64,000 nucleotides of DNA from Fragilariopsis cylindrus CCMP1102 (Eukaryota; Bacillariophyta; Bacillariophyceae; Bacillariales; Bacillariaceae), in contig FMBT01000328.1 in assembly GCA_900095095.1 (NCBI GenBank), forward strand, positions 1 to 64,000, in the 5' to 3' direction. Under the pieces are notes generated by a model. It made no database searches. It saw nothing but the letters and a program-made list of their open reading frames with translations, and was not told the DNA's origin. The translations under genes were made by a program, and so were the position numbers. Position 1 is the stretch's first letter. Each line of letters begins with the position of its first letter. Below are positions 9,512 through 31,382 of the stretch, piece by piece.

Positions 9512-10875
9512 AAGAAGAGATCAATTCACTGATATGACAATGGCAATTCATTCAACTGCACCTCCATTAATATTGATCTGTTTAATACAAACTTGCCAGG
9601 TAAAATATTGATATTGGTACTCTTATATTAACAGGGACAAAAAGTTCTGGTTTAATTTGGTCATTTGGGGAAAATTCTATGAGGTTATATAGGGATGGCA
9701 GACAAATTTTGAATCGCCACAAGAGGTGCATAAGAGAGGAGGATTACAAACTGAATAATAGAGTATGAGCTAAAGTCCTAGTACAGAAGTCTATGTTAGT
9801 GCTACATTAGTCAATGCGTGGTTTTTATTCCTATTGGTTTATCAAAAGAGGACCCATTATGGACAGGTATGTTTGACTATTTTTCCAGAAATAATGTACC
9901 ATGTGTGGACTACAAATTTCTCCTAACTAACACAGCTTCAAACTAGATGTTGATGTGAAGGTCAGTGGTTTGATACCATGTGTACGGGTAAGGTTTCTTC
10001 TACTGCAGGCTATTTACACTAGCCCCCGTGGTCGACATCATCAACAATGTACTTTTAGTAGAAGGAGACTACAACAGCAATGGAGGGTTCATCAGCCAGT
10101 ACCAATACTATTAAGAGGTTTAGATGGTAAAGGAAGTGGATCCCGTTGTCAATACAAAAAACGTCCTGGTTTCAATCAAGATGCTATCAAACGTGTGTCA
10201 TTTAAAATAGTCTAAATATTGATGTGAGGAGTGTAGTATGAATAGGAGTACAGATGTTTGGCTTTGTCATACTACCAAGAAGTTAAATGGAATCCAAACA
10301 GTAGCCAGTTGTCATTTGAAATACCATACAGAAATATGTTTCGAAACTACCAGCACTGCTACTGGAAGTAGCGTTGCTTCCAAGTTGACAGAAGAATAGA
10401 TATTCCACCAAGTACAATATTGCCTCTATTTAATGGGGATCTTATTATAGACTTTCTTCTGTATTTTTTAGTTAGAGTAGAATAGATAGTACATTATAAT
10501 GTATGTATCTATACGGATATTCCCATTATCATTATTTATCTTGAACAAAAATACCCGTACTTTTGCGCCTATAATTTTTGTGCAGTTATGGTAGAAGGAG
10601 CCAAAAACCCGCTCTCTATCTTCAAGGACAAGTAACTTATCCGGAACCCCAGGGATTTGGCTGTAATTATTTCATTATTAAAAGTGGTCTCTAGTTTGAC
10701 CCCATCAAGTCCAATACATTTCTTGTAAAGTTTTGTCTTCTATGAGCTTTCCACATCCAAATAAAGGGTATTATTTACTAGATTAATTTTTTTCTGCAGA
10801 AAATTAAGGCGTACATTAAGGTGTAAAAAATATTAGCGCACCCTCCAAAATACCTCATAGCTGGAGTCCTGTTAA
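8953..10875 (+). mobile_element. Candidate degraded piggyBac-like DNA transposon
   Basis: A third terminus at 10856-10875 (CATAGCTGGAGTCCTGTTAA) pairs with the left end at 8953 at 16 of 20 positions and also ends in TTAA, so a 1.9-kb unit can be drawn. Inside, 9955-10215 is open and ends with RCQYKKRPG, and a frame starting at 10237 reads VWLCHTTKK, then a Cys/His series (ASCHLKYHTEICFE). This vaguely resembles the C-terminal Cys/His-rich tail of piggyBac-type transposases. I find no intact catalytic Asp motifs and the coding part is broken by several stops. The termini are better supported than the transposase identity. Confidence 0.35.
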
Positions 10876-12378: not shown

Positions 12379-15300
12379 ATGCGTCTCGTCGTCGTCAACG
12401 TCTTGTCTCTACTTGCAACAATCGGATACTTCCCAAGTTTTGGCGAAGCATCTGTTGCTAACGAAGGATGTTCTCATCTAACCGAACCCATTTGGAAGGA
12501 AACTATTGGAAATGGAAGTGATTTCCCCTTCGACGTATCTACCGTTACTATTACCGGTCAACACGTCGATGAGGTTACCTTTCATACTTCACAACTTTGG
12601 AATGAAAATGGTCTTCCCATGGTCGCCGTCCATTTTCGAACGTTGGATGGAGATGAACAATGTTCAATGGAAACTATGGACGTTGAAAACGCCTTGATCC
12701 CGTTCGGAACTACAAAGGATTATACAGCCCAGTGTTCGTATGGGTATGCCGAAATTGGTGTTTATATTTATGTCGGTGACGAGGAAACTTTTGATATTGA
12801 CGAATGCGAATCTTGCTCTGCACCAGATAACAACTACGTTGGTTACTATCTATCTCTACCTTGTGTTCCTGTTTGTGAACCAACTACTCTTGACTGTTTC
12901 AGTGAACCAACGGTTCATCTTGCTGATATTGGTCACGAATCGAAATGTATTTACAACAGCAGCCCAATCATGACAGAAGCTACGAGCATGAAGACCGATT
13001 CTGTGGAATTCCTTATTGCAAACACGTGGAGTACAGATATTTCCGCTCTGTCCGTATATTACACGAACGCGATGGGTGAACCAGAATGTGACGTACTTAA
13101 TAATATGGAGGGATTTTCTGAGACTGTTCTGATGGAGGCATTTTGCGAACATGGTATGGCGGAAGTTATCGTTCAAGTTCATTCGAATGATATTAACCAT
13201 ATTGCGGAATATATCCCTGATGTTTGTAGTACCCCATCGGATATGGGTACATGTTCCTACGAGTTTATCGTTCCCTGCGTAGCTGGGGAAGTTTGTTATA
13301 CCGAACCACCCACTTCGTTCCCAACTGGTCTACCGACCCTGGAAGAATTACCAGTTATTCCTCCACCGACTGACGCTCCATTCGACTGTACAGCGCTTTC
13401 AGATCCTATCTGGCAGGAAACCACCGGTAACGAAAAATTTCCATACGATAACGAGTTTGTTACAATCCTTGAGCAGAATGTTGATGATGTTGTATTCTCT
13501 GTTTCTCAACTTTGGAACAAATTGGGTGTCCCAATGTTTGCTGTTTCTCACAGATCTTCTAACAGCGAAGATCTATGTTCAATGGAAACAATTGATGATG
13601 GTACCCTGATTCCGTATGATTCATCTAAGACCTATACGTCCAAGTGTACAATGGGATATGCAGAAATTGCTATTTTTGTTTATGTTGGACCAAATGATGT
13701 CTTTGATGTTGAGGAATGCGAGGCATGTGCTGCTCCTGATAATAACTACGTTGGTTACTATCTCTCTCTTCCTTGTACACCTGTGTGCGAGATTGGAACT
13801 CCAAGCTGCCTGGATGAACCTACAGTTGTCCTAGCAGATGTTGAACACCAAGCAATGTGTGTGTACGACGAGACACCGATCATGACAGAAACAATTTCCA
13901 TGAAGACTACATCAGTTGAATTTATTATTACCAACACATGGCCTGAAGATATTTCTGCACTGTCAGTGCACTTTATCAATGCTGATGGAGAACCACAATG
14001 CGACACATTTGCAGATATGGAAGGATTCTCAGTGACGTCACAAATCGAGGCGTACTGTTCTGAAGGAATTGCTGAAGTGGGTATCCAAATCTACTCAAGT
14101 ATATTGACTATATTTCTGGTATCCTCCCTGATGCTTGCCAAGCACCTGACGGTATGGGGCACTGTTCCTATGAATTCGTGATCCCATGTATGGAAGATCC
14201 AGATTGCAATCCTATAGCTCCCACTGATCTTCCTACCACTGCACCTTATGACTGCGTTGAGCTCTCTAATCCTATTTGGCATGAAACGACTGGAAGTCAA
14301 GACTTCCCCTACAACGAGAGAGTTGTTAATATCTTAGAGCAGAATGTGAACGAGATTAAGTTTACTATCTCTCAAATTTGGAATAAAATTGGCGTCCCGA
14401 TGTTTGCTGTTATGTACAGAACTACTGATGGGGACGAACAATGCTCAATGGAAACTATGGACGAAGGTCAAACATTGATTCCATACGAGACCACCGAAGT
14501 TTACGAAGCCCAGTGTACGGAAGGATACGCAGAAATCGTTGTGTACGCATACGTTGGTTCAGGAGATAACTTTGATCCAGAAGAATGCGAGGCCTGCTCA
14601 GCACCAGATGAAAATTATGTCGCATACGTAATTTCTCTCCCTTGTATTCCTATTTGTAAGCCAGAGATTCCAGATTGTTACGAAGACCCATTACTTGTTC
14701 TTGCTGATATCGACCATGAATCGATGTGTATTTACGATGAGAGACCAATTCAGTCTGATATTACTTCCATGATAACTGATTCTGTGGCATTTACAGTATC
14801 AAATACCTGGCCACAGGGAATAGAAGAATTGTCTATTTATTACAACAACAAGTTAGGAGAGCCGCAATGTCAAACAAGAAGAATGGACGATCTTGAGATT
14901 TCCTCTCCGATTGAAACGTTCTGTATCAATGGAATGGCCGAAGTAATTATTCAAGTACATTCACCGATGATTAATCATGTTGCTGATAAGATGCTTGAAG
15001 GATGTGCAAGGCCAAAAGAAATGGGAACGTGCTCTTACGAGTTTGTTGTTCCTTGTATTGCTATCGCTGATGGCCCTTGTGGTGTCCCCGAGTCAGTATT
15101 AGCGCCTATGACCGAAAACCCATCGCTATCCCCGTCGTCATCACCGTCGTCATTTCCATCAAGAGGACCAACAACGTCCCCTTCGACGATCCCAACGTTA
15201 AGTCCAAGTTCTAGTCCAAGCGCATCTCCAAGTGGAGGTCCAAGTGCCTCACCGTCAGCAAGTCCAAGTGGTGGTCCAAGTGCTGCCCCATCAGCAAGTC

Positions 15301-18300
15301 CAAGTGGCGGCCCTAGTGCCTCACCATCAGCAAGCCCAAGTGGAGGTCCAAGTGCCTCGCCTTCAGCAAGTCCAAGTGGAGGTCCAAGTGAGTCCCCTAG
15401 TGGTTCGCCATCTAGCAGTCCTTCTGAGTCACCAAGCAGCAAGCCTTCATCATCACCAAGCTCAGCGCCGAGTGGATCACCTAGTGAAGCCCCCAGTGGA
15501 TCATTTTTCCCTAGTTCGGCTCCTAGTGATACACCAACACTAAGTCATGCTCCAAGTGCCTCTCCTAGTGCTAATCCTAGTGAGTCACCAAGTTCTTCTC
15601 CTAGTTCTGCACCAAGTTCCTCTCCTAGTTCTAGTCCAAGTGCGTCACCAAGTGGTGGACCAAGTGGAAGTCCAAGTGCGTCACCAAGTGGTGGACCAAG
15701 TGGAAGTCCAAGTGCGTCACCTAGTGGTGGACCAAGTGGAAGTCCAAGTTCAGCTCCAAGTTCTAGTCCAAGCGCATCTCCAAGTGGAGGTCCAAGTGCC
15801 TCACCGTCAGCAAGTCCAAGTGGTGGTCCAAGTGCTGCCCCATCAGCAAGTCCAAGTGGCGGCCCTAGTGCCTCACCATCAGCAAGTCCAAGTGGAGGTC
15901 CAAGTGCCTCGCCTTCAGCAAGTCCAAGTGGAGGTCCAAGTAAGTCCCCTAGTGGTTCACCTTCTTCCACGCCTACTGCCTATCCAACTTTATCAATGAT
16001 GCCGACAGATTGTTCCATGCCAGCTCCACCAAATGTGATTGCCTCCGTTTGTATGTCTGGTGATACCCAGATTGGTACTAGTCCTATACCAAGTGACTCT
16101 CTTTTTGTTTCCAGTCAAGATGGCGAAAAAGTCGGCTTTACTGTCAGTCAGCAGTGGGTGGAAGAAGGTGGATTGGCAGTCATGTATAGTCCGGATGCTA
16201 TGTCGCCTAGTTGTTCTGTAAAAGGCAACATTATGCTCGGAGAATCTGAATATTTTGAAGGAGAATGTCTCAATGGAATGACAGGAGCTACTATTGTTGT
16301 TTTTATGGAGAAAGATTTTAAACCAGAAGAATGTGAGGCTTGCAATGTGGATGACTTGAGTGATATGGGAGGTGTTTTTTGTGCATACAGAGTAGAAATT
16401 CCATGCGAAACAATAAGTGTTGAATGTGGTGAGCCTAGTGCAGAACCAAGTGGCTCATTCTTTCCAAGTAGTGCACCATCTGGAAGCCCAACAGAAAGTC
16501 CAGCTCCTTCTGCGTCACCATCAACTTCACCATCACACTCACCCAGTAATGCTCCGAGTGCTAGGCCAAGTTCCTCTCCTTGTTCTAGTCCGAGTGCGTC
16601 ACCAAGTGGTGGACCAAGTGGAAGTCCAAGTGCGTCACCTAGTGGTGGACCAAGTGGAAGTCCAAGTTCAGCTCCAAGTTCTAGTCCAAGCGCATCTCCA
16701 AGTGGAGGTCCAAGTGCCTCACCGTCAGCAAGTCCAAGTGGTGGTCCAAGTGCTGCCCCATCAGCAAGTCCAAGTGGCGGCCCTAGTGCCTCACCATCAG
16801 CAAGCCCAAGTGGAGGTCCAAGTGCCTCGCCTTCAGCAAGTCCAAGTGGAGGTCCAAGTGAGTCCCCTAGTGGTTCGCCATCTAGCAGTCCTTCTGAGTC
16901 ACCAAGCAGCAAGCCTTCATCATCACCAAGCTCAGCGCCGAGTGGATCACCTAGTGAAGCCCCCAGTGGATCATTTTTCCCTAGTTCGGCTCCTAGTGAT
17001 ACACCAACACTAAGTCATGCTCCAAGTGCCTCTCCTAGTGCTAATCCTAGTGAGTCACCAAGTTCTTCTCCTAGTTCTGCACCAAGTTCCTCTCCTAGTT
17101 CCAGTCCAAGTGCGTCACCAAGTGGTGGACCAAGTGGAAGTCCAAGTGCGTCACCAAGTGGTGGACCAAGTGGAAGTCCAAGTGCGTCACCTAGTGGTGG
17201 ACCAAGTGGAAGTCCAAGTTCAGCTCCAAGTTCTAGTCCAAGCGCATCTCCAAGTGGAGGTCCAAGTGCCTCACCGTCAGCAAGTCCAAGTGGTGGTCCA
17301 AGTGCTGCCCCATCAGCAAGTCCAAGTGGCGGCCCTAGTGCCTCACCATCAGCAAGCCCAAGTGGAGGTCCAAGTGCCTCGCCTTCAGCAAGTCCAAGTG
17401 GAGGTCCAAGTGAGTCCCCTAGTGGTTCGCCATCTAGCAGTCCTTCTGAGTCACCAAGCAGCAAGCCTTCATCATCACCAAGCTCAGCGCCGAGTGGATC
17501 ACCTAGTGAAGCCCCCAGTGGATCATTTTTCCCTAGTTCGGCTCCTAGTGATACACCAACACTAAGTCATGCTCCAAGTGCCTCTCCTAGTGCTAATCCT
17601 AGTGAGTCACCAAGTTCTTCTCCTAGTTCTGCACCAAGTTCCTCTCCTAGTTCCAGTCCAAGTGCGTCACCAAGTGGTGGACCAAGTGGAAGTCCAAGTG
17701 CGTCACCAAGTGGTGGACCAAGTGGAAGTCCAAGTGCGTCACCTAGTGGTGGACCAAGTGGAAGTCCAAGTTCAGCTCCAAGTTCTAGTCCAAGCGCATC
17801 TCCAAGTGGAGGTCCAAGTGCCTCACCGTCAGCAAGTCCAAGTGGTGGTCCAAGTGCTGCCCCATCAGCAAGTCCAAGTGGCGGCCCTAGTGCCTCACCA
17901 TCAGCAAGCCCAAGTGGAGGTCCAAGTGCCTCGCCTTCAGCAAGTCCAAGTGGAGGTCCAAGTGAGTCCCCTAGTGGTTCGCCATCTAGCAGTCCTTCTG
18001 AGTCACCAAGCAGCAAGCCTTCATCATCACCAAGCTCAGCGCCGAGTGGATCACCTAGTGAAGCCCCCAGTGGATCATTTTTCCCTAGTTCGGCTCCTAG
18101 TGATACACCAACACTAAGTCATGCTCCAAGTGCCTCTCCTAGTGCTAATCCTAGTGAGTCACCAAGTTCTTCTCCTAGTTCTGCACCAAGTTCCTCTCCT
18201 AGTTCCAGTCCAAGTGCGTCACCAAGTGGTGGACCAAGTGGAAGTCCAAGTGCGTCACCAAGTGGTGGACCAAGTGGAAGTCCAAGTGCGTCACCTAGTG

Positions 18301-21300
18301 GTGGACCAAGTGGAAGTCCAAGTTCAGCTCCAAGTTCTAGTCCAAGCGCATCTCCAAGTGGAGGTCCAAGTGCCTCACCGTCAGCAAGTCCAAGTGGTGG
18401 TCCAAGTGCTGCCCCATCAGCAAGTCCAAGTGGCGGCCCTAGTGCCTCACCATCAGCAAGCCCAAGTGGAGGTCCAAGTGCCTCGCCTTCAGCAAGTCCA
18501 AGTGGAGGTCCAAGTGAGTCCCCTAGTGGTTCGCCATCTAGCAGTCCTTCTGAGTCACCAAGCAGCAAGCCTTCATCATCACCAAGCTCAGCGCCGAGTG
18601 GATCACCTAGTGAAGCCCCCAGTGGATCATTTTTCCCTAGTTCGGCTCCTAGTGATACACCAACACTAAGTCATGCTCCAAGTGCCTCTCCTAGTGCTAA
18701 TCCTAGTGAGTCACCAAGTTCTTCTCCTAGTTCTGCACCAAGTTCCTCTCCTAGTTCCAGTCCAAGTGCGTCACCAAGTGGTGGACCAAGTGGAAGTCCA
18801 AGTGCGTCACCAAGTGGTGGACCAAGTGGAAGTCCAAGTGCGTCACCTAGTGGTGGACCAAGTGGAAGTCCAAGTTCAGCTCCAAGTTCTAGTCCAAGCG
18901 CATCTCCAAGTGGAGGTCCAAGTGCCTCACCGTCAGCAAGTCCAAGTGGTGGTCCAAGTGCTGCCCCATCAGCAAGTCCAAGTGGCGGCCCTAGTGCCTC
19001 ACCATCAGCAAGCCCAAGTGGAGGTCCAAGTGCCTCGCCTTCAGCAAGTCCAAGTGGAGGTCCAAGTGAGTCCCCTAGTGGTTCGCCATCTAGCAGTCCT
19101 TCTGAGTCACCAAGCAGCAAGCCTTCATCATCACCAAGCTCAGCGCCGAGTGGATCACCTAGTGAAGCCCCCAGTGGATCATTTTTCCCTAGTTCGGCTC
19201 CTAGTGATACACCAACACTAAGTCATGCTCCAAGTGCCTCTCCTAGTGCTAATCCTAGTGAGTCACCAAGTTCTTCTCCTAGTTCTGCACCAAGTTCCTC
19301 TCCTAGTTCCAGTCCAAGTGCGTCACCAAGTGGTGGACCAAGTGGAAGTCCAAGTGCGTCACCAAGTGGTGGACCAAGTGGAAGTCCAAGTGCGTCACCT
19401 AGTGGTGGACCAAGTGGAAGTCCAAGTTCAGCTCCAAGTTCTAGTCCAAGCGCATCTCCAAGTGGAGGTCCAAGTGCCTCACCGTCAGCAAGTCCAAGTG
19501 GTGGTCCAAGTGCTGCCCCATCAGCAAGTCCAAGTGGCGGCCCTAGTGCCTCACCATCAGCAAGCCCAAGTGGAGGTCCAAGTGCCTCGCCTTCAGCAAG
19601 TCCAAGTGGAGGTCCAAGTGAGTCCCCTAGTGGTTCACCTTCTTCCACGCCTACTGCCTATCCAACTTTATCAATGATGCCGACAGATTGTTATATGAAA
19701 ACACCACCAAAGATAACCAATTCTGTCTGTATGTCTGGAAGCACAACTTTAAGCGCTCGACCAATGCCTCTTGCTGCACTTGTGGTTAATGAACTCAATG
19801 AAGATAAGATTGGGTTTACAGTTAGTCAACAATGGGTTGAAGAAGGTAGATTGGCAGTCATGTATAGTCCGGATGCAATGGTGCCTAGTTGTTCTGTAAA
19901 AGGCAACATTATGCTCGGAGAATCTGAATATTTTGAAGGAGAATGTCTCAATGGAATGACAGGAGCTACTATTGTTGTTTTTATGGAGAAAGATTTTAAA
20001 CCAGAAGAATGTGAGGCTTGCAATGTGGATGACTTGAGTGATATGGGAGGTGTTTTTTGTGCATACAGAGTAGAAATTCCATGCGAAACAATAAGTGTTG
20101 AATGTGGTGAGCCTAGTGCAGAACCAAGTGGCTCATTCTTTCCAAGTAGTGCACCATCTGGAAGCCCAACAGAAAGTCCAGCTCCTTCTGCGTCACCATC
20201 AACTTCACCATCACACTCACCCAGTGATGCTCCGAGTGCTAGGCCAAGTTCCTCTCCTAGTTCTAGTCCGAGTGCGTCACCAAGTGGTGGACCAAGTGGA
20301 AGTCCAAGTGCGTCACCTAGTGGTGGACCAAGTGGAAGTCCAAGTTCAGCTCCAAGTTCTAGTCCAAGCGCATCTCCAAGTGGAGGTCCAAGTGCCTCAC
20401 CGTCAGCAAGTCCAAGTGGTGGTCCAAGTGCTGCCCCATCAGCAAGTCCAAGTGGCGGCCCTAGTGCCTCACCATCAGCAAGCCCAAGTGGAGGTCCAAG
20501 TGCCTCGCCTTCAGCAAGTCCAAGTGGAGGTCCAAGTGAGTCCCCTAGTGGTTCGCCATCTAGCAGTCCTTCTGAGTCACCAAGCAGCAAGCCTTCATCA
20601 TCACCAAGCTCAGCGCCGAGTGGATCACCTAGTGAAGCCCCCAGTGGATCATTTTTCCCTAGTTCGGCTCCTAGTGATACACCAACACTAAGTCATGCTC
20701 CAAGTGCCTCTCCTAGTGCTAATCCTAGTGAGTCACCAAGTTCTTCTCCTAGTTCTGCACCAAGTTCCTCTCCTAGTTCCAGTCCAAGTGCGTCACCAAG
20801 TGGTGGACCAAGTGGAAGTCCAAGTGCGTCACCAAGTGGTGGACCAAGTGGAAGTCCAAGTGCGTCACCTAGTGGTGGACCAAGTGGAAGTCCAAGTTCA
20901 GCTCCAAGTTCTAGTCCAAGCGCATCTCCAAGTGGAGGTCCAAGTGCCTCACCGTCAGCAAGTCCAAGTGGTGGTCCAAGTGCTGCCCCATCAGCAAGTC
21001 CAAGTGGCGGCCCTAGTGCCTCACCATCAGCAAGCCCAAGTGGAGGTCCAAGTGCCTCGCCTTCAGCAAGTCCAAGTGGAGGTCCAAGTGAGTCCCCTAG
21101 TGGTTCGCCATCTAGCAGTCCTTCTGAGTCACCAAGCAGCAAGCCTTCATCATCACCAAGCTCAGCGCCGAGTGGATCACCTAGTGAAGCCCCCAGTGGA
21201 TCATTTTTCCCTAGTTCGGCTCCTAGTGATACACCAACACTAAGTCATGCTCCAAGTGCCTCTCCTAGTGCTAATCCTAGTGAGTCACCAAGTTCTTCTC

Positions 21301-24300
21301 CTAGTTCTGCACCAAGTTCCTCTCCTAGTTCCAGTCCAAGTGCGTCACCAAGTGGTGGACCAAGTGGAAGTCCAAGTGCGTCACCAAGTGGTGGACCAAG
21401 TGGAAGTCCAAGTGCGTCACCTAGTGGTGGACCAAGTGGAAGTCCAAGTTCAGCTCCAAGTTCTAGTCCAAGCGCATCTCCAAGTGGAGGTCCAAGTGCC
21501 TCACCGTCAGCAAGTCCAAGTGGTGGTCCAAGTGCTGCCCCATCAGCAAGTCCAAGTGGCGGCCCTAGTGCCTCACCATCAGCAAGCCCAAGTGGAGGTC
21601 CAAGTGCCTCGCCTTCAGCAAGTCCAAGTGGAGGTCCAAGTGAGTCCCCTAGTGGTTCGCCATCTAGCAGTCCTTCTGAGTCACCAAGCAGCAAGCCTTC
21701 ATCATCACCAAGCTCAGCGCCGAGTGGATCACCTAGTGAAGCCCCCAGTGGATCATTTTTCCCTAGTTCGGCTCCTAGTGATACACCAACACTAAGTCAT
21801 GCTCCAAGTGCCTCTCCTAGTGCTAATCCTAGTGAGTCACCAAGTTCTTCTCCTAGTTCTGCACCAAGTTCCTCTCCTAGTTCCAGTCCAAGTGCGTCAC
21901 CAAGTGGTGGACCAAGTGGAAGTCCAAGTGCGTCACCAAGTGGTGGACCAAGTGGAAGTCCAAGTGCGTCACCTAGTGGTGGACCAAGTGGAAGTCCAAG
22001 TTCAGCTCCAAGTTCTAGTCCAAGCGCATCTCCAAGTGGAGGTCCAAGTGCCTCACCGTCAGCAAGTCCAAGTGGTGGTCCAAGTGCTGCCCCATCAGCA
22101 AGTCCAAGTGGCGGCCCTAGTGCCTCACCATCAGCAAGCCCAAGTGGAGGTCCAAGTGCCTCGCCTTCAGCAAGTCCAAGTGGAGGTCCAAGTGAGTCCC
22201 CTAGTGGTTCACCTTCTTCCACGCCTACTGCCTATCCAACTTTATCAATGATGCCGACAGATTGTTATATGAAAACACCACCAAAGATAACCAATTCTGT
22301 CTGTATGTCTGGAAGCACAACTTTAAGCGCTCGACCAATGCCTCTTGCTGCACTTGTGGTTAATGAACTCAATGAAGATAAGATTGGGTTTACAGTTAGT
22401 CAACAATGGGTTGAAGAAGGTGGATTGGCAGTCATGTATAGTCCGGATGCAATGGTGCCTAGTTGTTCTGTAAAAGGCAACATTATGCTCGGAGAATCTG
22501 AATATTTTGAAGGAGAATGTCTCAATGGAATGACAGGAGCTACTATTGTTGTTTTTATGGAGAAAGATTTTAAACCAGAAGAATGTGAGGCTTGCAATGT
22601 GGATGACTTGAGTGATATGGGAGGTGTTTTTTGTGCATACAGAGTAGAAATTCCATGCGAAACAATAAGTGTTGAATGTGGTGAGCCTAGTGCAGAACCA
22701 AGTGGCTCATTCTTTCCAAGTAGTGCACCATCTGGAAGCCCAACAGAAAGTCCAGCTCCTTCTGCGTCACCATCAACTTCACCATCACACTCACCCAGTG
22801 ATGCTCCGAGTGCTAGGCCAAGTTCCTCTCCTAGTTCTAGTCCGAGTGCGTCACCAAGTGGTGGACCAAGTGGAAGTCCAAGTGCGTCACCTAGTGGTGG
22901 ACCAAGTGGAAGTCCAAGTTCAGCTCCAAGTTCTAGTCCAAGCGCATCTCCAAGTGGAGGTCCAAGTGCCTCACCGTCAGCAAGTCCAAGTGGTGGTCCA
23001 AGTGCTGCCCCATCAGCAAGTCCAAGTGGCGGCCCTAGTGCCTCACCATCAGCAAGCCCAAGTGGAGGTCCAAGTGCCTCGCCTTCAGCAAGTCCAAGTG
23101 GAGGTCCAAGTGAGTCCCCTAGTGGTTCGCCATCTAGCAGTCCTTCTGAGTCACCAAGCAGCAAGCCTTCATCATCACCAAGCTCAGCGCCGAGTGGATC
23201 ACCTAGTGAAGCCCCCAGTGGATCATTTTTCCCTAGTTCGGCTCCTAGTGATACACCAACACTAAGTCATGCTCCAAGTGCCTCTCCTAGTGCTAATCCT
23301 AGTGAGTCACCAAGTTCTTCTCCTAGTTCTGCACCAAGTTCCTCTCCTAGTTCCAGTCCAAGTGCGTCACCAAGTGGTGGACCAAGTGGAAGTCCAAGTG
23401 CGTCACCAAGTGGTGGACCAAGTGGAAGTCCAAGTGCGTCACCTAGTGGTGGACCAAGTGGAAGTCCAAGTTCAGCTCCAAGTTCTAGTCCAAGCGCATC
23501 TCCAAGTGGAGGTCCAAGTGCCTCACCGTCAGCAAGTCCAAGTGGTGGTCCAAGTGCTGCCCCATCAGCAAGTCCAAGTGGCGGCCCTAGTGCCTCACCA
23601 TCAGCAAGCCCAAGTGGAGGTCCAAGTGCCTCGCCTTCAGCAAGTCCAAGTGGAGGTCCAAGTGAGTCCCCTAGTGGTTCGCCATCTAGCAGTCCTTCTG
23701 AGTCACCAAGCAGCAAGCCTTCATCATCACCAAGCTCAGCGCCGAGTGGATCACCTAGTGAAGCCCCCAGTGGATCATTTTTCCCTAGTTCGGCTCCTAG
23801 TGATACACCAACACTAAGTCATGCTCCAAGTGCCTCTCCTAGTGCTAATCCTAGTGAGTCACCAAGTTCTTCTCCTAGTTCTGCACCAAGTTCCTCTCCT
23901 AGTTCTAGTCCAAGTGCGTCACCAAGTTCCTCCTAGTTCAGTCCAAGTGCGTCACCAAGTGGTGGACCAAGTGGAAGTCCAAGTGCGTCACCTAGTGGTG
24001 GACCAAGTGGAAGTCCAAGTTCAGCTCCAAGTTCTAGTCCAAGCGCATCTCCAAGTGGAGGTCCAAGTGCCTCACCGTCAGCAAGTCCAAGTGGTGGTCC
24101 AAGTGCTGCCCCATCAGCAAGTCCAAGTGGCGGCCCTAGTGCCTCACCATCAGCAAGCCCAAGTGGAGGTCCAAGTGCCTCGCCTTCAGCAAGTCCAAGT
24201 GGAGGTCCAAGTGAGTCCCCTAGTGGTTCGCCATCTAGCAGTCCTTCTGAGTCACCAAGCAGCAAGCCTTCATCATCACCAAGCTCAGCGCCGAGTGGAT

Positions 24301-27300
24301 CACCTAGTGAAGCCCCCAGTGGATCATTTTTCCCTAGTTCGGCTCCTAGTGATACACCAACACTAAGTCATGCTCCAAGTGCCTCTCCTAGTGCTAATCC
24401 TAGTGAGTCACCAAGTTCTTCTCCTAGTTCTGCACCAAGTTCCTCTCCTAGTTCCAGTCCAAGTGCGTCACCAAGTGGTGGACCAAGTGGAAGTCCAAGT
24501 GCGTCACCAAGTGGTGGACCAAGTGGAAGTCCAAGTGCGTCACCTAGTGGTGGACCAAGCGGAAGTCCAAGTTCAGCTCCAAGTTCTAGTCCAAGCGCAT
24601 CTCCAAGTGGAGGTCCAAGTGCCTCACCGTCAGCAAGTCCAAGTGGTGGTCCAAGTGCTGCCCCATCAGCAAGTCCAAGTGGCGGCCCTAGTGCCTCACC
24701 ATCAGCAAGCCCAAGTGGAGGTCCAAGTGCCTCGCCTTCAGCAAGTCCAAGTGGAGGTCCAAGTGAGTCCCCTAGTGGTTCGCCATCTAGCAGTCCTTCT
24801 GAGTCACCAAGCAGCAAGCCTTCATCATCACCAAGCTCAGCGCCGAGTGGATCACCTAGTGAAGCCCCCAGTGGATCATTTTTCCCTAGTTCGGCTCCTA
24901 GTGATACACCAACACTAAGTCATGCTCCAAGTGCCTCTCCTAGTGCTAATCCTAGTGAGTCACCAAGTTCTTCTCCTAGTTCTGCACCAAGTTCCTCTCC
25001 TAGTTCCAGTCCAAGTGCGTCACCAAGTGGTGGACCAAGTGGAAGTCCAAGTGCGTCACCAAGTGGTGGACCAAGTGGAAGTCCAAGTGCGTCACCTAGT
25101 GGTGGACCAAGTGGAAGTCCAAGTTCAGCTCCAAGTTCTAGTCCAAGCGCATCTCCAAGTGGAGGTCCAAGTGCCTCACCGTCAGCAAGTCCAAGTGGTG
25201 GTCCAAGTGCTGCCCCATCAGCAAGTCCAAGTGGCGGCCCTAGTGCCTCACCATCAGCAAGCCCAAGTGGAGGTCCAAGTGCCTCGCCTTCAGCAAGTCC
25301 AAGTGGAGGTCCAAGTGAGTCCCCTAGTGGTTCACCTTCTTCCACGCCTACTGCCTATCCAACTTTATCAATGATGCCGACAGATTGTTATATGAAAACA
25401 CCACCAAAGATAACCAATTCTGTCTGTATGTCTGGAAGCACAACTTTAAGCGCTCGACCAATGCCTCTTGCTGCACTTGTGGTTAATGAACTCAATGAAG
25501 ATAAGATTGGGTTTACAGTTAGTCAACAATGGGTTGAAGAAGGTGGATTGGCAGTCATGTATAGTCCGGATGCAATGGTGCCTAGTTGTTCTGTAAAAGG
25601 CAACATTATGCTCGGAGAATCTGAATATTTTGAAGGAGAATGTCTCAATGGAATGACAGGAGCTACTATTGTTGTTTTTATGGAGAAAGATTTTAAACCA
25701 GAAGAATGTGAGGCTTGCAATGTGGATGACTTGAGTGATATGGGAGGTGTTTTTTGTGCATACAGAGTAGAAATTCCATGCGAAACAATAAGTGTTGAAT
25801 GTGGTGAGCCTAGTGCAGAACCAAGTGGCTCATTCTTTCCAAGTAGTGCACCATCTGGAAGCCCAACAGAAAGTCCAGCTCCTTCTGCGTCACCATCAAC
25901 TTCACCATCACACTCACCCAGTGATGCTCCGAGTGCTAGGCCAAGTTCCTCTCCTAGTTCTAGTCCGAGTGCGTCACCAAGTGGTGGACCAAGTGGAAGT
26001 CCAAGTGCGTCACCTAGTGGTGGACCAAGTGGAAGTCCAAGTTCAGCTCCAAGTTCTAGTCCAAGCGCATCTCCAAGTGGAGGTCCAAGTGCCTCACCGT
26101 CAGCAAGTCCAAGTGGTGGTCCAAGTGCTGCCCCATCAGCAAGTCCAAGTGGCGGCCCTAGTGCCTCACCATCAGCAAGCCCAAGTGGAGGTCCAAGTGC
26201 CTCGCCTTCAGCAAGTCCAAGTGGAGGTCCAAGTGAGTCCCCTAGTGGTTCGCCATCTAGCAGTCCTTCTGAGTCACCAAGCAGCAAGCCTTCATCATCA
26301 CCAAGCTCAGCGCCGAGTGGATCACCTAGTGAAGCCCCCAGTGGATCATTTTTCCCTAGTTCGGCTCCTAGTGATACACCAACACTAAGTCATGCTCCAA
26401 GTGCCTCTCCTAGTGCTAATCCTAGTGAGTCACCAAGTTCTTCTCCTAGTTCTGCACCAAGTTCCTCTCCTAGTTCCAGTCCAAGTGCGTCACCAAGTGG
26501 TGGACCAAGTGGAAGTCCAAGTGCGTCACCAAGTGGTGGACCAAGTGGAAGTCCAAGTGCGTCACCTAGTGGTGGACCAAGCGGAAGTCCAAGTTCAGCT
26601 CCAAGTTCTAGTCCAAGCGCATCTCCAAGTGGAGGTCCAAGTGCCTCACCGTCAGCAAGTCCAAGTGGTGGTCCAAGTGCTGCCCCATCAGCAAGTCCAA
26701 GTGGCGGCCCTAGTGCCTCACCATCAGCAAGCCCAAGTGGAGGTCCAAGTGCCTCGCCTTCAGCAAGTCCAAGTGGAGGTCCAAGTGAGTCCCCTAGTGG
26801 TTCGCCATCTAGCAGTCCTTCTGAGTCACCAAGCAGCAAGCCTTCATCATCACCAAGCTCAGCGCCGAGTGGATCACCTAGTGAAGCCCCCAGTGGATCA
26901 TTTTTCCCTAGTTCGGCTCCTAGTGATACACCAACACTAAGTCATGCTCCAAGTGCCTCTCCTAGTGCTAATCCTAGTGAGTCACCAAGTTCTTCTCCTA
27001 GTTCTGCACCAAGTTCCTCTCCTAGTTCCAGTCCAAGTGCGTCACCAAGTGGTGGACCAAGTGGAAGTCCAAGTGCGTCACCAAGTGGTGGACCAAGTGG
27101 AAGTCCAAGTGCGTCACCTAGTGGTGGACCAAGTGGAAGTCCAAGTTCAGCTCCAAGTTCTAGTCCAAGCGCATCTCCAAGTGGAGGTCCAAGTGCCTCA
27201 CCGTCAGCAAGTCCAAGTGGTGGTCCAAGTGCTGCCCCATCAGCAAGTCCAAGTGGCGGCCCTAGTGCCTCACCATCAGCAAGCCCAAGTGGAGGTCCAA

Positions 27301-30300
27301 GTGCCTCGCCTTCAGCAAGTCCAAGTGGAGGTCCAAGTGAGTCCCCTAGTGGTTCGCCATCTAGCAGTCCTTCTGAGTCACCAAGCAGCAAGCCTTCATC
27401 ATCACCAAGCTCAGCGCCGAGTGGATCACCTAGTGAAGCCCCCAGTGGATCATTTTTCCCTAGTTCGGCTCCTAGTGATACACCAACACTAAGTCATGCT
27501 CCAAGTGCCTCTCCTAGTGCTAATCCTAGTGAGTCACCAAGTTCTTCTCCTAGTTCTGCACCAAGTTCCTCTCCTAGTTCCAGTCCAAGTGCGTCACCAA
27601 GTGGTGGACCAAGTGGAAGTCCAAGTGCGTCACCAAGTGGTGGACCAAGTGGAAGTCCAAGTGCGTCACCTAGTGGTGGACCAAGTGGAAGTCCAAGTTC
27701 AGCTCCAAGTTCTAGTCCAAGCGCATCTCCAAGTGGAGGTCCAAGTGCCTCACCGTCAGCAAGTCCAAGTGGTGGTCCAAGTGCTGCCCCATCAGCAAGT
27801 CCAAGTGGCGGCCCTAGTGCCTCACCATCAGCAAGCCCAAGTGGAGGTCCAAGTGCCTCGCCTTCAGCAAGTCCAAGTGGAGGTCCAAGTGAGTCCCCTA
27901 GTGGTTCGCCATCTAGCAGTCCTTCTGAGTCACCAAGCAGCAAGCCTTCATCATCACCAAGCTCAGCGCCGAGTGGATCACCTAGTGAAGCCCCCAGTGG
28001 ATCATTTTTCCCTAGTTCGGCTCCTAGTGATACACCAACACTAAGTCATGCTCCAAGTGCCTCTCCTAGTGCTAATCCTAGTGAGTCACCAAGTTCTTCT
28101 CCTAGTTCTGCACCAAGTTCCTCTCCTAGTTCCAGTCCAAGTGCGTCACCAAGTGGTGGACCAAGTGGAAGTCCAAGTGCGTCACCAAGTGGTGGACCAA
28201 GTGGAAGTCCAAGTGCGTCACCTAGTGGTGGACCAAGTGGAAGTCCAAGTTCAGCTCCAAGTTCTAGTCCAAGCGCATCTCCAAGTGGAGGTCCAAGTGC
28301 CTCACCGTCAGCAAGTCCAAGTGGTGGTCCAAGTGCTGCCCCATCAGCAAGTCCAAGTGGCGGCCCTAGTGCCTCACCATCAGCAAGCCCAAGTGGAGGT
28401 CCAAGTGCCTCGCCTTCAGCAAGTCCAAGTGGAGGTCCAAGTGAGTCCCCTAGTGGTTCGCCATCTAGCAGTCCTTCTGAGTCACCAAGCAGCAAGCCTT
28501 CATCATCACCAAGCTCAGCGCCGAGTGGATCACCTAGTGAAGCCCCCAGTGGATCATTTTTCCCTAGTTCGGCTCCTAGTGATACACCAACACTAAGTCA
28601 TGCTCCAAGTGCCTCTCCTAGTGCTAATCCTAGTGAGTCACCAAGTTCTTCTCCTAGTTCTGCACCAAGTTCCTCTCCTAGTTCCAGTCCAAGTACGTCA
28701 CCAAGTGGTGGACCAAGTGGAAGTCCAAGTGCGTCACCAAGTGGTGGACCAAGTGGAAGTCCAAGTGCGTCACCTAGTGGTGGACCAAGTGGAAGTCCAA
28801 GTTCAGCTCCAAGTTCTAGTCCAAGCGCATCTCCAAGTGGAGGTCCAAGTGCCTCACCGTCAGCAAGTCCAAGTGGTGGTCCAAGTGCTGCCCCATCAGC
28901 AAGTCCAAGTGGCGGCCCTAGTGCCTCACCATCAGCAAGCCCAAGTGGAGGTCCAAGTGCCTCGCCTTCAGCAAGTCCAAGTGGAGATCCAAGTGAGTCC
29001 CCTAGTGGTTCACCTTCTTCCATGCCTACTGCCTATCCAACTTTATCAATGATGCCGACAGATTGTTCCATGCCAGCTCCACCAAATGTGATTGCTTCGT
29101 TTGTATGTCTGGTGATACCCAGATTGGTACTAGTCCTATGCCAAGTGACTCTCTTTTTGTTTCCAGTCAAGATGGCGAAAAAGTCGGCTTTACTGTCAGT
29201 CAACAGTGGGTGGAAGAGGGTGGAATTGCTGTTAATTTTAATAACCTATCGATCGAATCTAGCTGTTCCATTAGTGGTAATGTCACGCTTGGAGATTCTA
29301 AGGATTATGAGGGAGGATGTATTGAAGGCATTTCAGCTGTCACGATTGTGGTCTACATGGAGCAGGAATTTGACCCAGAAGAATGTGAGGCTTGTAATGT
29401 TGATGACCTTTCCCAAATGGGAGGAACTTTCTGTGCATACAGAGTTGAAATTCCCTGTGAAACAATAGTGTTGAATGTGGTGAACCTAGTGCAGCACCAA
29501 GTGGCTCTTACTTTCCAAGTAGTGCACCATCTGAGAGCCCAACAAAGAGTCCTGCTCCTTCTGCTTCTCCATCTGCTTCACCATCTGAGTCACCCAGTGA
29601 TGCTCCTAGTTCTAGTCCAAGCGTTCACCAAGTACTGATCCAAGTTCGAGTCCAAGTTCTGCACCAAGTGGCGGACCAAGTGACGGCCCCAGTTCCTCAC
29701 CATCTCTAAGCCCAAGTGGTGGTCCAAGTGCCTCACCATCAGTAAGTCCAAGTGGAGGTCCAAGTGCTTCGCTGTCAGCAAGTCCAAGTGGAGGACCAAG
29801 CGCCTCACCATCATCAATTCCGTCTGGTACTCCCACAAATGTCCACGTGATGACCCGATTTTGATTGACATTAATGGAAGTACGATGTACCCAGAAGGTG
29901 CACCTCCAATTGAAATTACTTTTCAAAACACAACTCATGTAGGATTTAAGGTTATCAACACCTGGGATACGACTTTCACCAATATGTATACCGAGTATCA
30001 CGAAGGAGGATTCGGCGAGACCGAGTGTCTCGAAGAAGAGAACATCGAGTCTTATACAGAAGTTGATGAATATATGGCTACGTGTATGCACAATGTTCCA
30101 GTTTCTATTGTGAATGTCTGGGTTGTTGATGCAAATGAGACGCGGTTCGACGAAGTTGATGATGCCGAAGTTCCAATGTGTTGTCACCCACCCGAGTTTT
30201 CCGAAGTACCTATCGTCCAGTATACGTTTAAGCTCTCTTGTGTAAATCCTTGCCCCGAAGAAGAAGAAGATCCGGTCGTTGTAACTCCCGAGGTTTCTGT

Positions 30301-30640
30301 ACCCGCACGCCGTCGTCTGCATAATAAGAAGATAGATGAGAATATCAACGATATCACATCTGCCGAAGCATTCAGGCACACGGCGAAGAGAAAAATTTCT
30401 AATTCGTCTACTGGTACCATGAACGAACCAAGTTCTGATGGCAAGGATGGCCACTTTTGTGTTTCGGAAGATTATCCATGTGGAGAAGATATTGACCGTG
30501 TTCACGTCTGTCACTACTCTGCCCGCGACGGATACAAAACTTTCTGCGTGCCCGAGAGCGACTCTGACGTCTTAGCCTTTTATAAGAAGGATTACTGTGG
30601 ACCTTGTGTTGGTGGTTACGGAAGCAAGATCAAAAGATAA
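12379..30640 (+). CDS. Giant secreted mucin-like protein with Cys-rich modules and PSxx repeats
   Basis: The ATG at 12379 opens with a classic signal peptide (hydrophobic core about 3-20, then FGEAS). Next come three A-B module pairs (about 12469-15080), each module about 140 residues with conserved Cys. The A hallmark is QCSMETMD...GYAEI...ECE-C-APD-NY...SLPC; the B hallmark is HESMCIY...NTW...CSYEF-VPC. PSxx blocks follow at 15118-16005, 16432-19680, 20107-22254, 22681-25377, 25804-29055 and 29485-29838. They are separated by five C modules (start about 16009, 19684, 22258, 25381, 29059; hallmark VGFTVSQQWVEEGG...EECEACNVDDL...YRVEIPC). A last divergent module (29840-30260) precedes a Cys-rich tail ending near DYCGPCVGGYG. 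The product was probably about 6,088 residues, extracellular and likely O-glycosylated on Ser/Pro. The frame breaks five times by one missing base (near 14100, 29095, 29466, 29623, 29839) and has an in-frame TAG at 23934-23936. Adding five bases makes the length a multiple of three. It could be an adhesive, mucilage or wall protein; I do not know which. Confidence 0.8.
12469..15080 (+). repeat. Three tandem A-B Cys-rich module pairs
   Basis: A1-B1, A2-B2 and A3-B3 start near 12469, 13384 and 14250. Unlike the PSxx blocks these copies have diverged at both protein and DNA level, so they are older duplications. Conserved in A: IW-ETxGN, QLWNxxGxPM, QCSMETMD, AEIxVYxYVG, ECExC, SLPC-PxC. Conserved in B: PxV-LADIxHES-CIY, MT-SVxFxxxNTW, GEPxC, AEV-IQVxS, SYEF-VPC. 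The paired Cys suggest disulfide-stabilised extracellular domains. Confidence 0.8.
15118..16005 (+). repeat. PSxx repeat block 1
   Basis: Opens with less regular SPSSSPSSFPSRGP-type sequence, then settles into SPSASPSGGPSG-type units. Contains one copy of the TLSHAPSASPSANPSESP landmark, so it holds a single higher-order unit. Ends in PTAYPTLSMMPTDC, the stereotyped entry to a C module. Confidence 0.9.
16432..19680 (+). repeat. PSxx repeat block 2, five landmark units
   Basis: Landmark TLSHAPSASP occurs five times at exactly 552-bp spacing (about 17009, 17561, 18113, 18665, 19217). The 184-residue unit contains three SASPSGGPSG copies and one AAPSASPSGG variant in fixed order. The copies look identical at DNA level over almost their whole length. 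Confidence 0.9.
20107..22254 (+). repeat. PSxx repeat block 3, three landmark units
   Basis: Same 552-bp higher-order unit as block 2, with landmarks near 20687, 21239 and 21791. It opens with GEPSAEPSGSFFPSS directly after module C2 and closes before C3. Confidence 0.9.
22681..25377 (+). repeat. PSxx repeat block 4, four landmark units, one irregular
   Basis: Landmarks near 23261, 23813, 24362 and 24914. The unit that contains the stop at 23934-23936 is 549 bp instead of 552. There a GGPSGSP segment is replaced by a short duplication of the SSSPS segment. Confidence 0.9.
25804..29055 (+). repeat. PSxx repeat block 5, five landmark units
   Basis: Landmarks near 26384, 26936, 27488, 28040 and 28592, spaced 552 bp. 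A few private substitutions (Ala to Thr near 28694, Gly to Asp near 28987, Thr to Met near 29022) mark the last unit as slightly diverged. Confidence 0.9.
29485..29838 (+). repeat. PSxx repeat block 6, short and diverged
   Basis: A shorter block with its own sequence (SYFPSS, SESPTKSP, SDGPSSSPSLSP) and no 552-bp unit. It contains one of the single-base frame breaks. It links module C5 to the final Cys-rich module. Confidence 0.85.
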
Positions 30641-31382
30641 ATTCAGCCTGTATTCTAAACTCTATTCACATTTATAAGCTTTTACATATTACTACGAAAA
30701 CAACAGACTTAGACAAATCATGTTAAAATAATTTTATTTCACATAAGTTTTTCATATTATTATTATTTATTATAATCATTATTTTAGATTCAAAATCTTT
30801 TAATATCCTTCGACTATCGTTTCAGATTTTCTGTTTGTCTCTCATATATATATATATATATATATCTATATATATATATCTATATATATATATAAATATA
30901 TTGAATATAACTTCTTTCTTCGTCGTACAGAAGGATATGTGTGCTGCTTGTATTCCTCAGTTTTAGTCAACTTTCACAATAATATTGATTTACCCAGTCA
31001 TCATGGATACGAAGTCAATTGTTTATTAATTGATAACTCAGGATTTCTTGGTCGAATCTCCTTTGTAAAAACATATTGTAATCTTTCTAGAAAAAGTCGA
31101 TATCTTTCCAATACTGGTAATATTAATAATTAATATGCAATGTTGAGGAAAACTGCAGTACCGCAGTTTGCAAGTTTTATATACTTTTTCCCATCTTTCT
31201 AACTAAGTCTTTATTGTACCGTAAAATCCATAGAAAGTTTGTCCAGAAAAGTTTCAGCAAAACTGAAAACAATTGCTTCTTTTGTAAAAATAATAATAGA
31301 AAAAAAAACCTAATCATAAAGTACTTCATTAACGACTGAGCCAACTACACGTGTAATGAACAAATCAATGATGCCTTATCAA
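30641..31382. other. Intergenic, convergent gene ends
   Basis: 3' flanks of the giant gene and of the minus-strand gene at 31383-32537. Strongly AT-rich, with a (TA)n microsatellite at about 30845-30900. The 64-codon frame at 30939-31133 has no recognisable features. Confidence 0.6.

Follow-up and report, generated by a model that had tools for sequence, protein, structure and literature searches.

Work on surface proteins with repeat arrays of variable length, among them mucins and flocculins, usually takes one gene at a time. Gel-forming mucins carry densely O-glycosylated Pro/Ser(/Thr) repeats broken by cysteine-rich (Cys-rich) domains, and are defined by VWD-type assembly domains together with the mucin Cys domain. 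In human MUC5AC and MUC5B, a tandem-repeat array is broken by Cys-rich domains, and length and domain number vary between haplotypes, according to one report (PMC13345508). In yeast Flo adhesins, Ser/Thr-rich tandem repeats form a rod, and another report describes how they set off recombination, either inside the gene or with a pseudogene, and thereby alter gene length (PMC8621652). Among diatoms, the pleuralins (HEPs) of Cylindrotheca fusiformis are proline-rich and contain repeated Cys-rich modules, as PMC4557024 describes, and the adhesive trail proteins (vWD/GDPH type) are secreted modular proteins with a proposed surface role and, according to PMC7335047, a vWD domain. Here we describe a diatom gene with a nested Pro/Ser array, located in the first 64 kb (the window) of contig C99 (327,370 bp). 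Mucin- and flocculin-like variable arrays are already known; the part likely to surprise a specialist is that the repeat unit of this array is shared with genes that have no other detectable kinship to it. Among the matches listed in a search of the open-licence PMC literature, none concerned this array and none concerned repeat exchange between diatom genes.

The genome searched (67.9 Mb in 818 contigs, labelled C99, C558, C420 and so on) is that of a diatom, because a silicon-transporter profile gave 27 matches in it, the best at 757 bits over almost the whole model, and only 1 of 14 other genomes gave any match, below the cut-off. The gene spans 12379-30640 on the + strand, frame breaks included, and encodes in order a signal-peptide-like start, six Cys modules, a PSxx rod of about 4,100 residues into which five further Cys modules are set, then a DUF7633 module and finally a Cys tail ending in KIKR (Table 1). 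Like the gel-forming mucins, it has Pro/Ser repeats broken by Cys-rich domains. Unlike them, it matched no VWD or mucin Cys-domain model in the four pieces scanned, which were two from the N-terminal part, an array Cys module and the C-terminus; Pfam at E<=1 returned DUF7633, one chance poxvirus row for the N-terminal modules and nothing else. The likeness to a mucin put forward in an earlier, sequence-only reading of this DNA thus extends to architecture and not to membership. The gene further differs from MUC5AC and MUC5B in its tetrad PSxx rod, its diatom modules and a unit common to genes without other kinship. Flo adhesins have a PA14 or Flo11 ligand domain and a GPI anchor. The same four pieces matched neither of these ligand domains nor the vWD domain of the adhesive trail proteins, and, unlike in the Flo adhesins, Cys modules lie inside the array and the exchange partners would be non-homologous genes. 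Pleuralins have an N-terminal proline-rich domain before their Cys repeats, whereas in this protein the leading position belongs to six Cys modules of ~130 residues, and the later modules are set apart by long PSxx rods.

The repeats nest at 12, 36, 552 and 918 + n × 552 base pairs (bp). The tetrads and 36-nucleotide (nt) units proposed by the sequence-only reading are both borne out. In the proline/serine (PS) parts between 15.1 and 29.0 kb (4113 residues, four modules removed), the step from one proline to the next is four residues in 945 of 998 intervals, and S or T comes directly after proline in 993 of 999 cases; serine makes up 43.9% and proline 24.3%, with only 24 lysine plus arginine residues. 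The 36-nt repeat stands in three tandem copies within the 552-bp unit, and the distance to the next unit start is 402 bp from the TESPAPSASP landmark behind a Cys module, one 36-nt repeat fewer than the 438 bp from TLSHAPSASP. The TLSHAPSASP landmark occurs 18 times in a single frame (15537-28590), at spacings of 552 (twelve), 1470 (four) and 549 bp (one). The earlier count of 18 units of 552 bp was therefore nearly right: 17 units have this length, one (u11) has 549 bp and an in-frame stop, and the SFFPSSAPS landmark adds four further copies to the 18 (22 in the gene), plus a diverged one at 29485. Among the full-length units, 10 of 17 are identical to the 552-bp consensus and the other 7 carry 1-9 base differences. 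The last unit before each Cys module is marked by six changes at positions 537-549, one of which differs in u18.

Successive Cys modules in the array are spaced 3678, 2574, 3123 and 3678 bp apart, corresponding to mega-units of 918 + n × 552 bp, where n is 5, 3, 4 and 5 and the third is 3 bp short. The landmarks fall into the same groups (5, 3, 4 and 5), with one more ahead of the first array Cys module. The sequence-only reading had given this grouping and the last three lengths correctly, and its first value (3,675 bp) was 3 bp too short. The differences between mega-units are close to multiples of 552, as it had stated (3678-2574 = 1104 = 2 × 552; 3678-3123 = 555). Its placing of the array inside one gene at 15118..29838 needs extension, as the gene with the array is present and reaches further, with its frame broken at ~14.10 kb and at four places within 29.07-29.85 kb.

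The stretch C99:1-17435 has a colinear counterpart in a second contig, C558, which matches it at 95.0% over 10.3 kb and at 97.8% over 7.2 kb and carries ~580 bp extra at C99:10282. The possibility that C558 is a tandem paralogue was rejected, as 17 kb of colinear flank shows allelism. The contig stops inside the array, and the spacings between its Cys modules are 1470, 1469 and 1466 bp, close to 918 + 552 and thus n = 1 per mega-unit. The assembled unit numbers are 1|5|3|4|5 in C99 and 1|1|1|1|at least 1 in C558. This difference supports the earlier proposal that the length of the protein is evolvable.

Units were compared over the first 530 alignment columns, u1, u11 and u18 being left out to define the interior C99 units. 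Interior C99 units were 0-1 base apart (105 pairs, mean 0.25) and all 18 C99 units 0-14 (153 pairs). The C558 units v1-v4 differed by 0-8 bases (6 pairs), and interior C99 units differed from them by 6-8 (60 pairs, mean 6.6). Relative to C99 u2, C558 v2-v4 have six substitutions in common; among themselves they vary at position 48 and through insertions or deletions (indels). The 918-bp Cys blocks B2-B4 gave a similar picture, with 0-1 differences in C99, 1-6 in C558 and 5-11 across alleles. Because units within C99 are 0-1 apart and the alleles 6-8 apart, each haplotype has homogenised its own array. At position 210, 16 of 18 C99 units have C; the base is T in u1, u11, C558 v1-v4 and the matching units on C420, C58 and C53 described below, while the locus near 180 kb on C99 (C99:180 kb) has G at the aligned place; the C reads as a derived base that spread through the array of one haplotype. 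At the ends of the array the blocks have diverged, B1 differing from the interior C99 blocks at 68-69 positions and B5 at 247-248. A homogenised interior with diverged ends is the trace that exchange in tandem arrays would leave. In about half of human mucins, boundary repeats are less homogenised, according to PMC13345508.

Array Cys module 1 is a chimera, with a 5' part like module 5 and a 3' part like modules 2, 3 and 4, and the switch lies between 16160 and 16166. Its informative sites comprise 59 consecutive module-5-like sites followed by 75 of 77 module-3-like sites, 2 matching neither. Two more module-3-like sites lie upstream, within the tail of the unit, a region with changes private to the last unit. 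Module 1 of C558 has the same switch (59, then 76 of 77). The module thus contains what looks like a crossover junction in both alleles, and, as both carry the same switch, the event should predate the allele split.

The unit is not confined to this gene. The landmark PSEAPSGS[FY]FPSSAPS was found at at least ten loci in 33 distinct copies, 31 of them with two aromatics at positions left free in the search, and its spacing varies between genes. The 552-bp unit matched C420 at 96.9% over 714 bp, C58 and C53 (probably two haplotigs) at 94.8 and 95.0% over 615 bp, and C99:180 kb at 95.9% over 269 bp (90.1% over 789 bp). The best 300-bp identities at these four loci were 99.0% (C420), 98.7% (C58), 98.3% (C53) and 98.7% (C99:180 kb), followed by 85% in C350, 83% in C500, 81% in C83 and 54% in C303. 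C770 and C525, homologues that share Cys modules, DUF7633 or the tail with the window gene, reached only 65% and 50%. The next-best registers of the best window at the four close loci gave only ~0.53-0.64, indicating that the order of tetrads was inherited. Codons for the same residue were identical in 220 of 226 cases in C420, 184 of 195 in both C58 and C53, and 79 of 84 in C99:180 kb, that is, in 94-97%, compared with 41-43% expected from independent draws from the codon usage of the unit. The agreement was lower in C500 (80 of 104), C83 (55 of 80) and C770 (21 of 37).

Outside the repeats, queries with the N-terminus, a Cys module and the C-terminus gave no match in 6 of 8 stretches tested (2.2-10 kb), among them those of C420, C58, C53, C99:180 kb and C500; matches were obtained in C770 and C350. 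Whole-genome searches with the Cys module, tail and DUF7633 placed none of the matches listed on C420, C58, C53 or C500 or at C99:180 kb. C500 carries DUF285, and the C58/C53 gene ends in a hydrophobic stretch, judged by eye. The gene at C99:179206-180519 combines the PS unit of the window with a hydrophobic stretch and a ubiquitin-like domain at its end. At C83:188505-193149 there is another long PSxx array, in which 12 landmark matches were counted, several of them ~408 bp apart. C83 was left out of the unrelated genes because C83:183.2-185.8 kb, a few kb downstream of the array and on its strand, holds a Cys-module gene with the tail, and the two may be one gene.

In a tree built from 34 landmark segments over 192 columns, with firm support for 7 of its 31 inner branches, one clade (100/98) united the window, C558, C420, C99:180 kb and a single C58/C53 unit out of three, with C770 outside. 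The other C58/C53 units were placed elsewhere (99/96), so that the units of this one gene differ in origin. Together, these data point to exchange that reaches genes without other detectable kinship to the window gene. The sequence-only reading had proposed unequal exchange at two scales. Exchange itself is supported by the differing assembled allele, the allele-specific homogenisation, the diverged end modules and the chimera; its restriction to one gene is not.

We consider it likely that the gene encodes a secreted, mucin-like protein of the cell surface or matrix, whose rod is remodelled by exchange both within the gene and between unrelated genes. Most likely it would serve in the cell-surface matrix, as a structural, adhesive or mucilage component. 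Globular Cys-rich modules, predicted to be beta sandwiches, would alternate with stiff PSxx rods interrupted by the aromatic landmark, and the chain would end in the DUF7633 module, an RXL-type site and the Cys tail. The rods are probably O-glycosylated, as their S/P composition permits. An extended polyproline-type helix measures ~0.31 nm per residue, at which 4,100 rod residues would exceed one micrometre. Sawtooth force curves of a diatom adhesive have been ascribed to modular proteins (PMC11966768), suggesting that such chains exist in diatoms, with no tie to the window gene.

Homologous exchange in the array, by unequal crossing-over, conversion or both, would add and remove 552-bp units and whole Cys-module blocks, and this gain and loss would alter rod length and node number. 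PS-coding DNA would also recombine ectopically, and surface-protein genes that are otherwise unrelated would thereby trade pieces of rod. Whether the 552-bp PSxx segment serves as a shared recombination cassette, with otherwise unrelated surface-protein genes having recently swapped rods by ectopic conversion and each haplotype amplifying its own version within the large array, we judge an evenly balanced question. The genes concerned would be the Cys-module/DUF7633 gene of the window, the ubiquitin-like gene with a hydrophobic stretch, the Cys-rich gene with a hydrophobic stretch and others, and the large array may act as the donor pool. If this is true, the surface proteins of a cell share one evolving linker. 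Alleles with independently homogenised arrays and different assembled unit numbers, and a unit found at near-allelic identity in genes without other kinship, would make concerted evolution of surface polymers across non-homologous genes directly testable in a unicellular alga, where the inherited number of units would fix how long the rod is and how many nodes it has.

Several points weigh against this interpretation. The C99 copy contains at least six frame breaks or stops, at ~14.10 kb, in u11 and as four frame changes within 29.07-29.85 kb; the last four sit in an otherwise well-kept coding stretch where the second haplotype is not in the assembly, and only a single copy of the 3' end of the gene was found there. 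The assembled haplotypes differ in unit number, and these numbers are taken from the assembly. The value n = 1 in C558 could be partly an assembly effect, because its array is cut by the contig end and indels crowd its final 2.3 kb (31 gap openings over 2299 aligned bases, compared with 1 over 2319 earlier). The exchange data fit crossing-over, conversion or slippage alike. The genes called unrelated (C420, C58, C53, C99:180 kb and C500) were read over 2.2-4.5 kb each. Elsewhere in the repeat-rich part, local off-register matches of up to 77-81% occur over 240-320 bp, and values near 80% (C500, C83 and C350) consequently say little, so nothing was built on them. In the landmark tree, 13 of 31 inner branches are weak and the alignment is short.

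The function could also be a different one. A silica-associated (frustule) structural protein, with a pleuralin- or cingulin-like role instead of a mucilage or adhesive one, is possible though rather doubtful. The combination of Pro/Ser-rich segments and Cys modules would suit it, and so would the RXL-type site before the tail, a motif described as a potential cleavage site in frustule-associated proteins (PMC9650480). The corresponding RR.L follows DUF7633 in 7 of 15 rows of relatives. A profile of the Cys modules gave no entry of PSCD, the domain repeated in pleuralins, at E<=1 among PDB sequences, a set in which the presence of PSCD was unchecked. Silaffins are lysine-rich, and the rods, with 24 lysine plus arginine residues in 4113, are not of that kind.

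It is improbable, in our view, that the counts 5, 3, 4, 5 and 1, 1, 1, 1 are an assembly artefact in which the repeat was expanded or collapsed. Tandem repeats are a known source of assembly error, as PMC6868369 notes, and the contigs give some grounds for concern: C558 stops in the array, C340 begins in a relative, and the first 6.4 kb of C99 duplicate the end of contig C199 at 99.9%. In addition, each haplotype has isolated 1-base coding indels missing from the other, and indels rise toward the end of C558. However, the units of the two haplotypes carry different, internally consistent substitutions and different spacings, C58 and C53 agree on the cross-gene segment, and the module chimera is present in both alleles.

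A decaying pseudogene, in which an untranslated array is free to expand, appears quite improbable for the C99 copy. The breaks listed above are what this explanation would draw on, since haplotype-private breaks are also the pattern expected of real null mutations. However, the break at ~14100 is missing from C558 in the allele alignment, and three 1-base coding indels of C558 (C99 12850, 12856 and 14993) are missing from C99, as with consensus errors. The N-terminus shows 9 synonymous changes in 611 sites and 8 nonsynonymous in 2176 between alleles, a ratio of nonsynonymous to synonymous polymorphism (pN/pS) of ~0.25. Because all four N-terminal breaks are confined to one haplotype each and pN/pS is low, most frame breaks read as consensus errors. 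Moreover, the 13.9 kb from 15117 to 29027 are open except for one stop, and DUF7633 and the tail are open. Introns were rejected as the cause of the inspected breaks (14.10 kb, module 5 and its end), as homologous sequence runs through them without an insert.

Finally, we find it very improbable that the cross-gene sharing reflects selection on the PSxx pattern with codon bias, or an old common ancestor: all the genes keep the aromatic landmark, which makes selection on the motif likely, C500, C83 and C350 at 81-85% could be old homologues, and off-register matches reach the levels given above, but the identity at the four close loci covers synonymous positions, the tetrad order is kept over 600-700 bp, the homologues recognised by their non-repeat modules (C770 and C525) are far less similar in the unit, and the non-repeat parts share nothing detectable.

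The modules of the protein gave few matches elsewhere. The predicted structure of Cys module 3 consists mostly of strands in a beta sandwich, with a mean predicted local distance difference test (pLDDT) score of 84.3; in a fold search of this model against the PDB no match stood out that would mark it as an Ig/FnIII-like sandwich, and searches of PDB sequences, by sequence and by profile, returned nothing or a single chance row. DUF7633 (PF24636) matched at 58.5 bits (cut-off 27), and its predicted model is confident over the first ~140 residues only. The PT disordered repeat model (PF04886) scored 159.9 bits (cut-off 26.2) in window:16893-18548, where no single stretch passes alone; in window:22260-23144, one single stretch does. 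Both models therefore match the gene, but they describe sequence families without known function, and the nested array lies outside their descriptions.

DUF7633 gave 16 matches in the genome and none in the 14 control genomes, and is unmentioned in the open-licence PMC literature searched. Gametolysin-like proteins (Peptidase M11; L001, L009 and L010, on C223, C464 and C776) and a DUF7640 protein (L004) also carry it at their C-terminal end. The domain thereby gains an architecture, as the C-terminal module of presumably secreted proteins that include gametolysin-like proteases.

Table 1. Features of the nested-repeat gene (positions in the window).
Feature	Position	Strand	Basis
Signal-peptide-like start, MRLVVVNVLSLLATIGYFPSFGEA	12379..12450	+	translation, judged by eye
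Six N-terminal Cys modules, types A and B alternating	12466..15056	+	tblastn, alignment
N-terminal type A modules	12466-12864, 13387-13776, 14253-14645	+	tblastn, alignment
N-terminal type B modules	12892-13278, 13807-14189, 14673-15056	+	tblastn, alignment
Unit u1, 552 bp, ahead of first array Cys module	15423..15974	+	landmark positions, unit alignment
Array Cys module 1, chimeric	16008..16406	+	tblastn, site comparison
TESPAPSASP-type PS segment behind Cys module 1, one 36-nt repeat shorter	16410..16892	+	landmark positions; boundaries approximate
Equivalent TESPAPSASP-type segments behind modules 2-4	~20088-20570, 22662-23144, 25785-26267	+	boundaries approximate
Units u2-u6, 5 x 552 bp	16893..19652	+	landmark positions, unit alignment
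Array Cys module 2	19686..20084	+	tblastn, genome search
Units u7-u9, 3 x 552 bp	20571..22226	+	landmark positions, unit alignment
Array Cys module 3	22260..22658	+	tblastn; structure predicted
Units u10-u13, 552/549/552/552 bp; in-frame stop of u11 at 23934-23936	23145..25349	+	landmark positions, unit alignment
Array Cys module 4	25383..25781	+	tblastn, genome search
Units u14-u18, 5 x 552 bp	26268..29027	+	landmark positions, unit alignment
Array Cys module 5, diverged (59-60% amino-acid identity in the matched part), frame change near start	29066..29458	+	start approximate
Diverged final landmark and PS segment; frame changes three times between 29.46 and 29.85 kb	29485..29840	+	translation, landmark search
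C-terminal module, Pfam DUF7633, same superfamily as Cys modules	29873..30232	+	profile match
RRRL (RXL-type), candidate processing site in the gap between DUF7633 and tail	30308..30319	+	sequence; recurrence in relatives
Cys-rich C-terminal tail and stop	30437..30640	+	genome search; matches at 3 further genome places

An Rfam search of the window gave no match. At its left end, window 1-6370 matches the end of C199 (99.9%) and, over 3.9 kb, the end of C808, which corresponds to overlapping contig ends kept in the assembly. A dispersed repeat of ~350 bp at 9534-9892 recurs at more than 25 places among the matches listed, at roughly 75-81% identity, and a palindromic element of ~60 bp lies just 3' of the gene (30844-30901), with both-strand matches in dozens of genome places. 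A Noc2 gene at 34586-35633 lies in two overlapping frames, with an intron or a further frame break. An open reading frame with a spermine/spermidine synthase domain was found at 42111-43916; its first part may correspond to S-adenosylmethionine decarboxylase, a pairing that we take to be of interest for silica polyamines.

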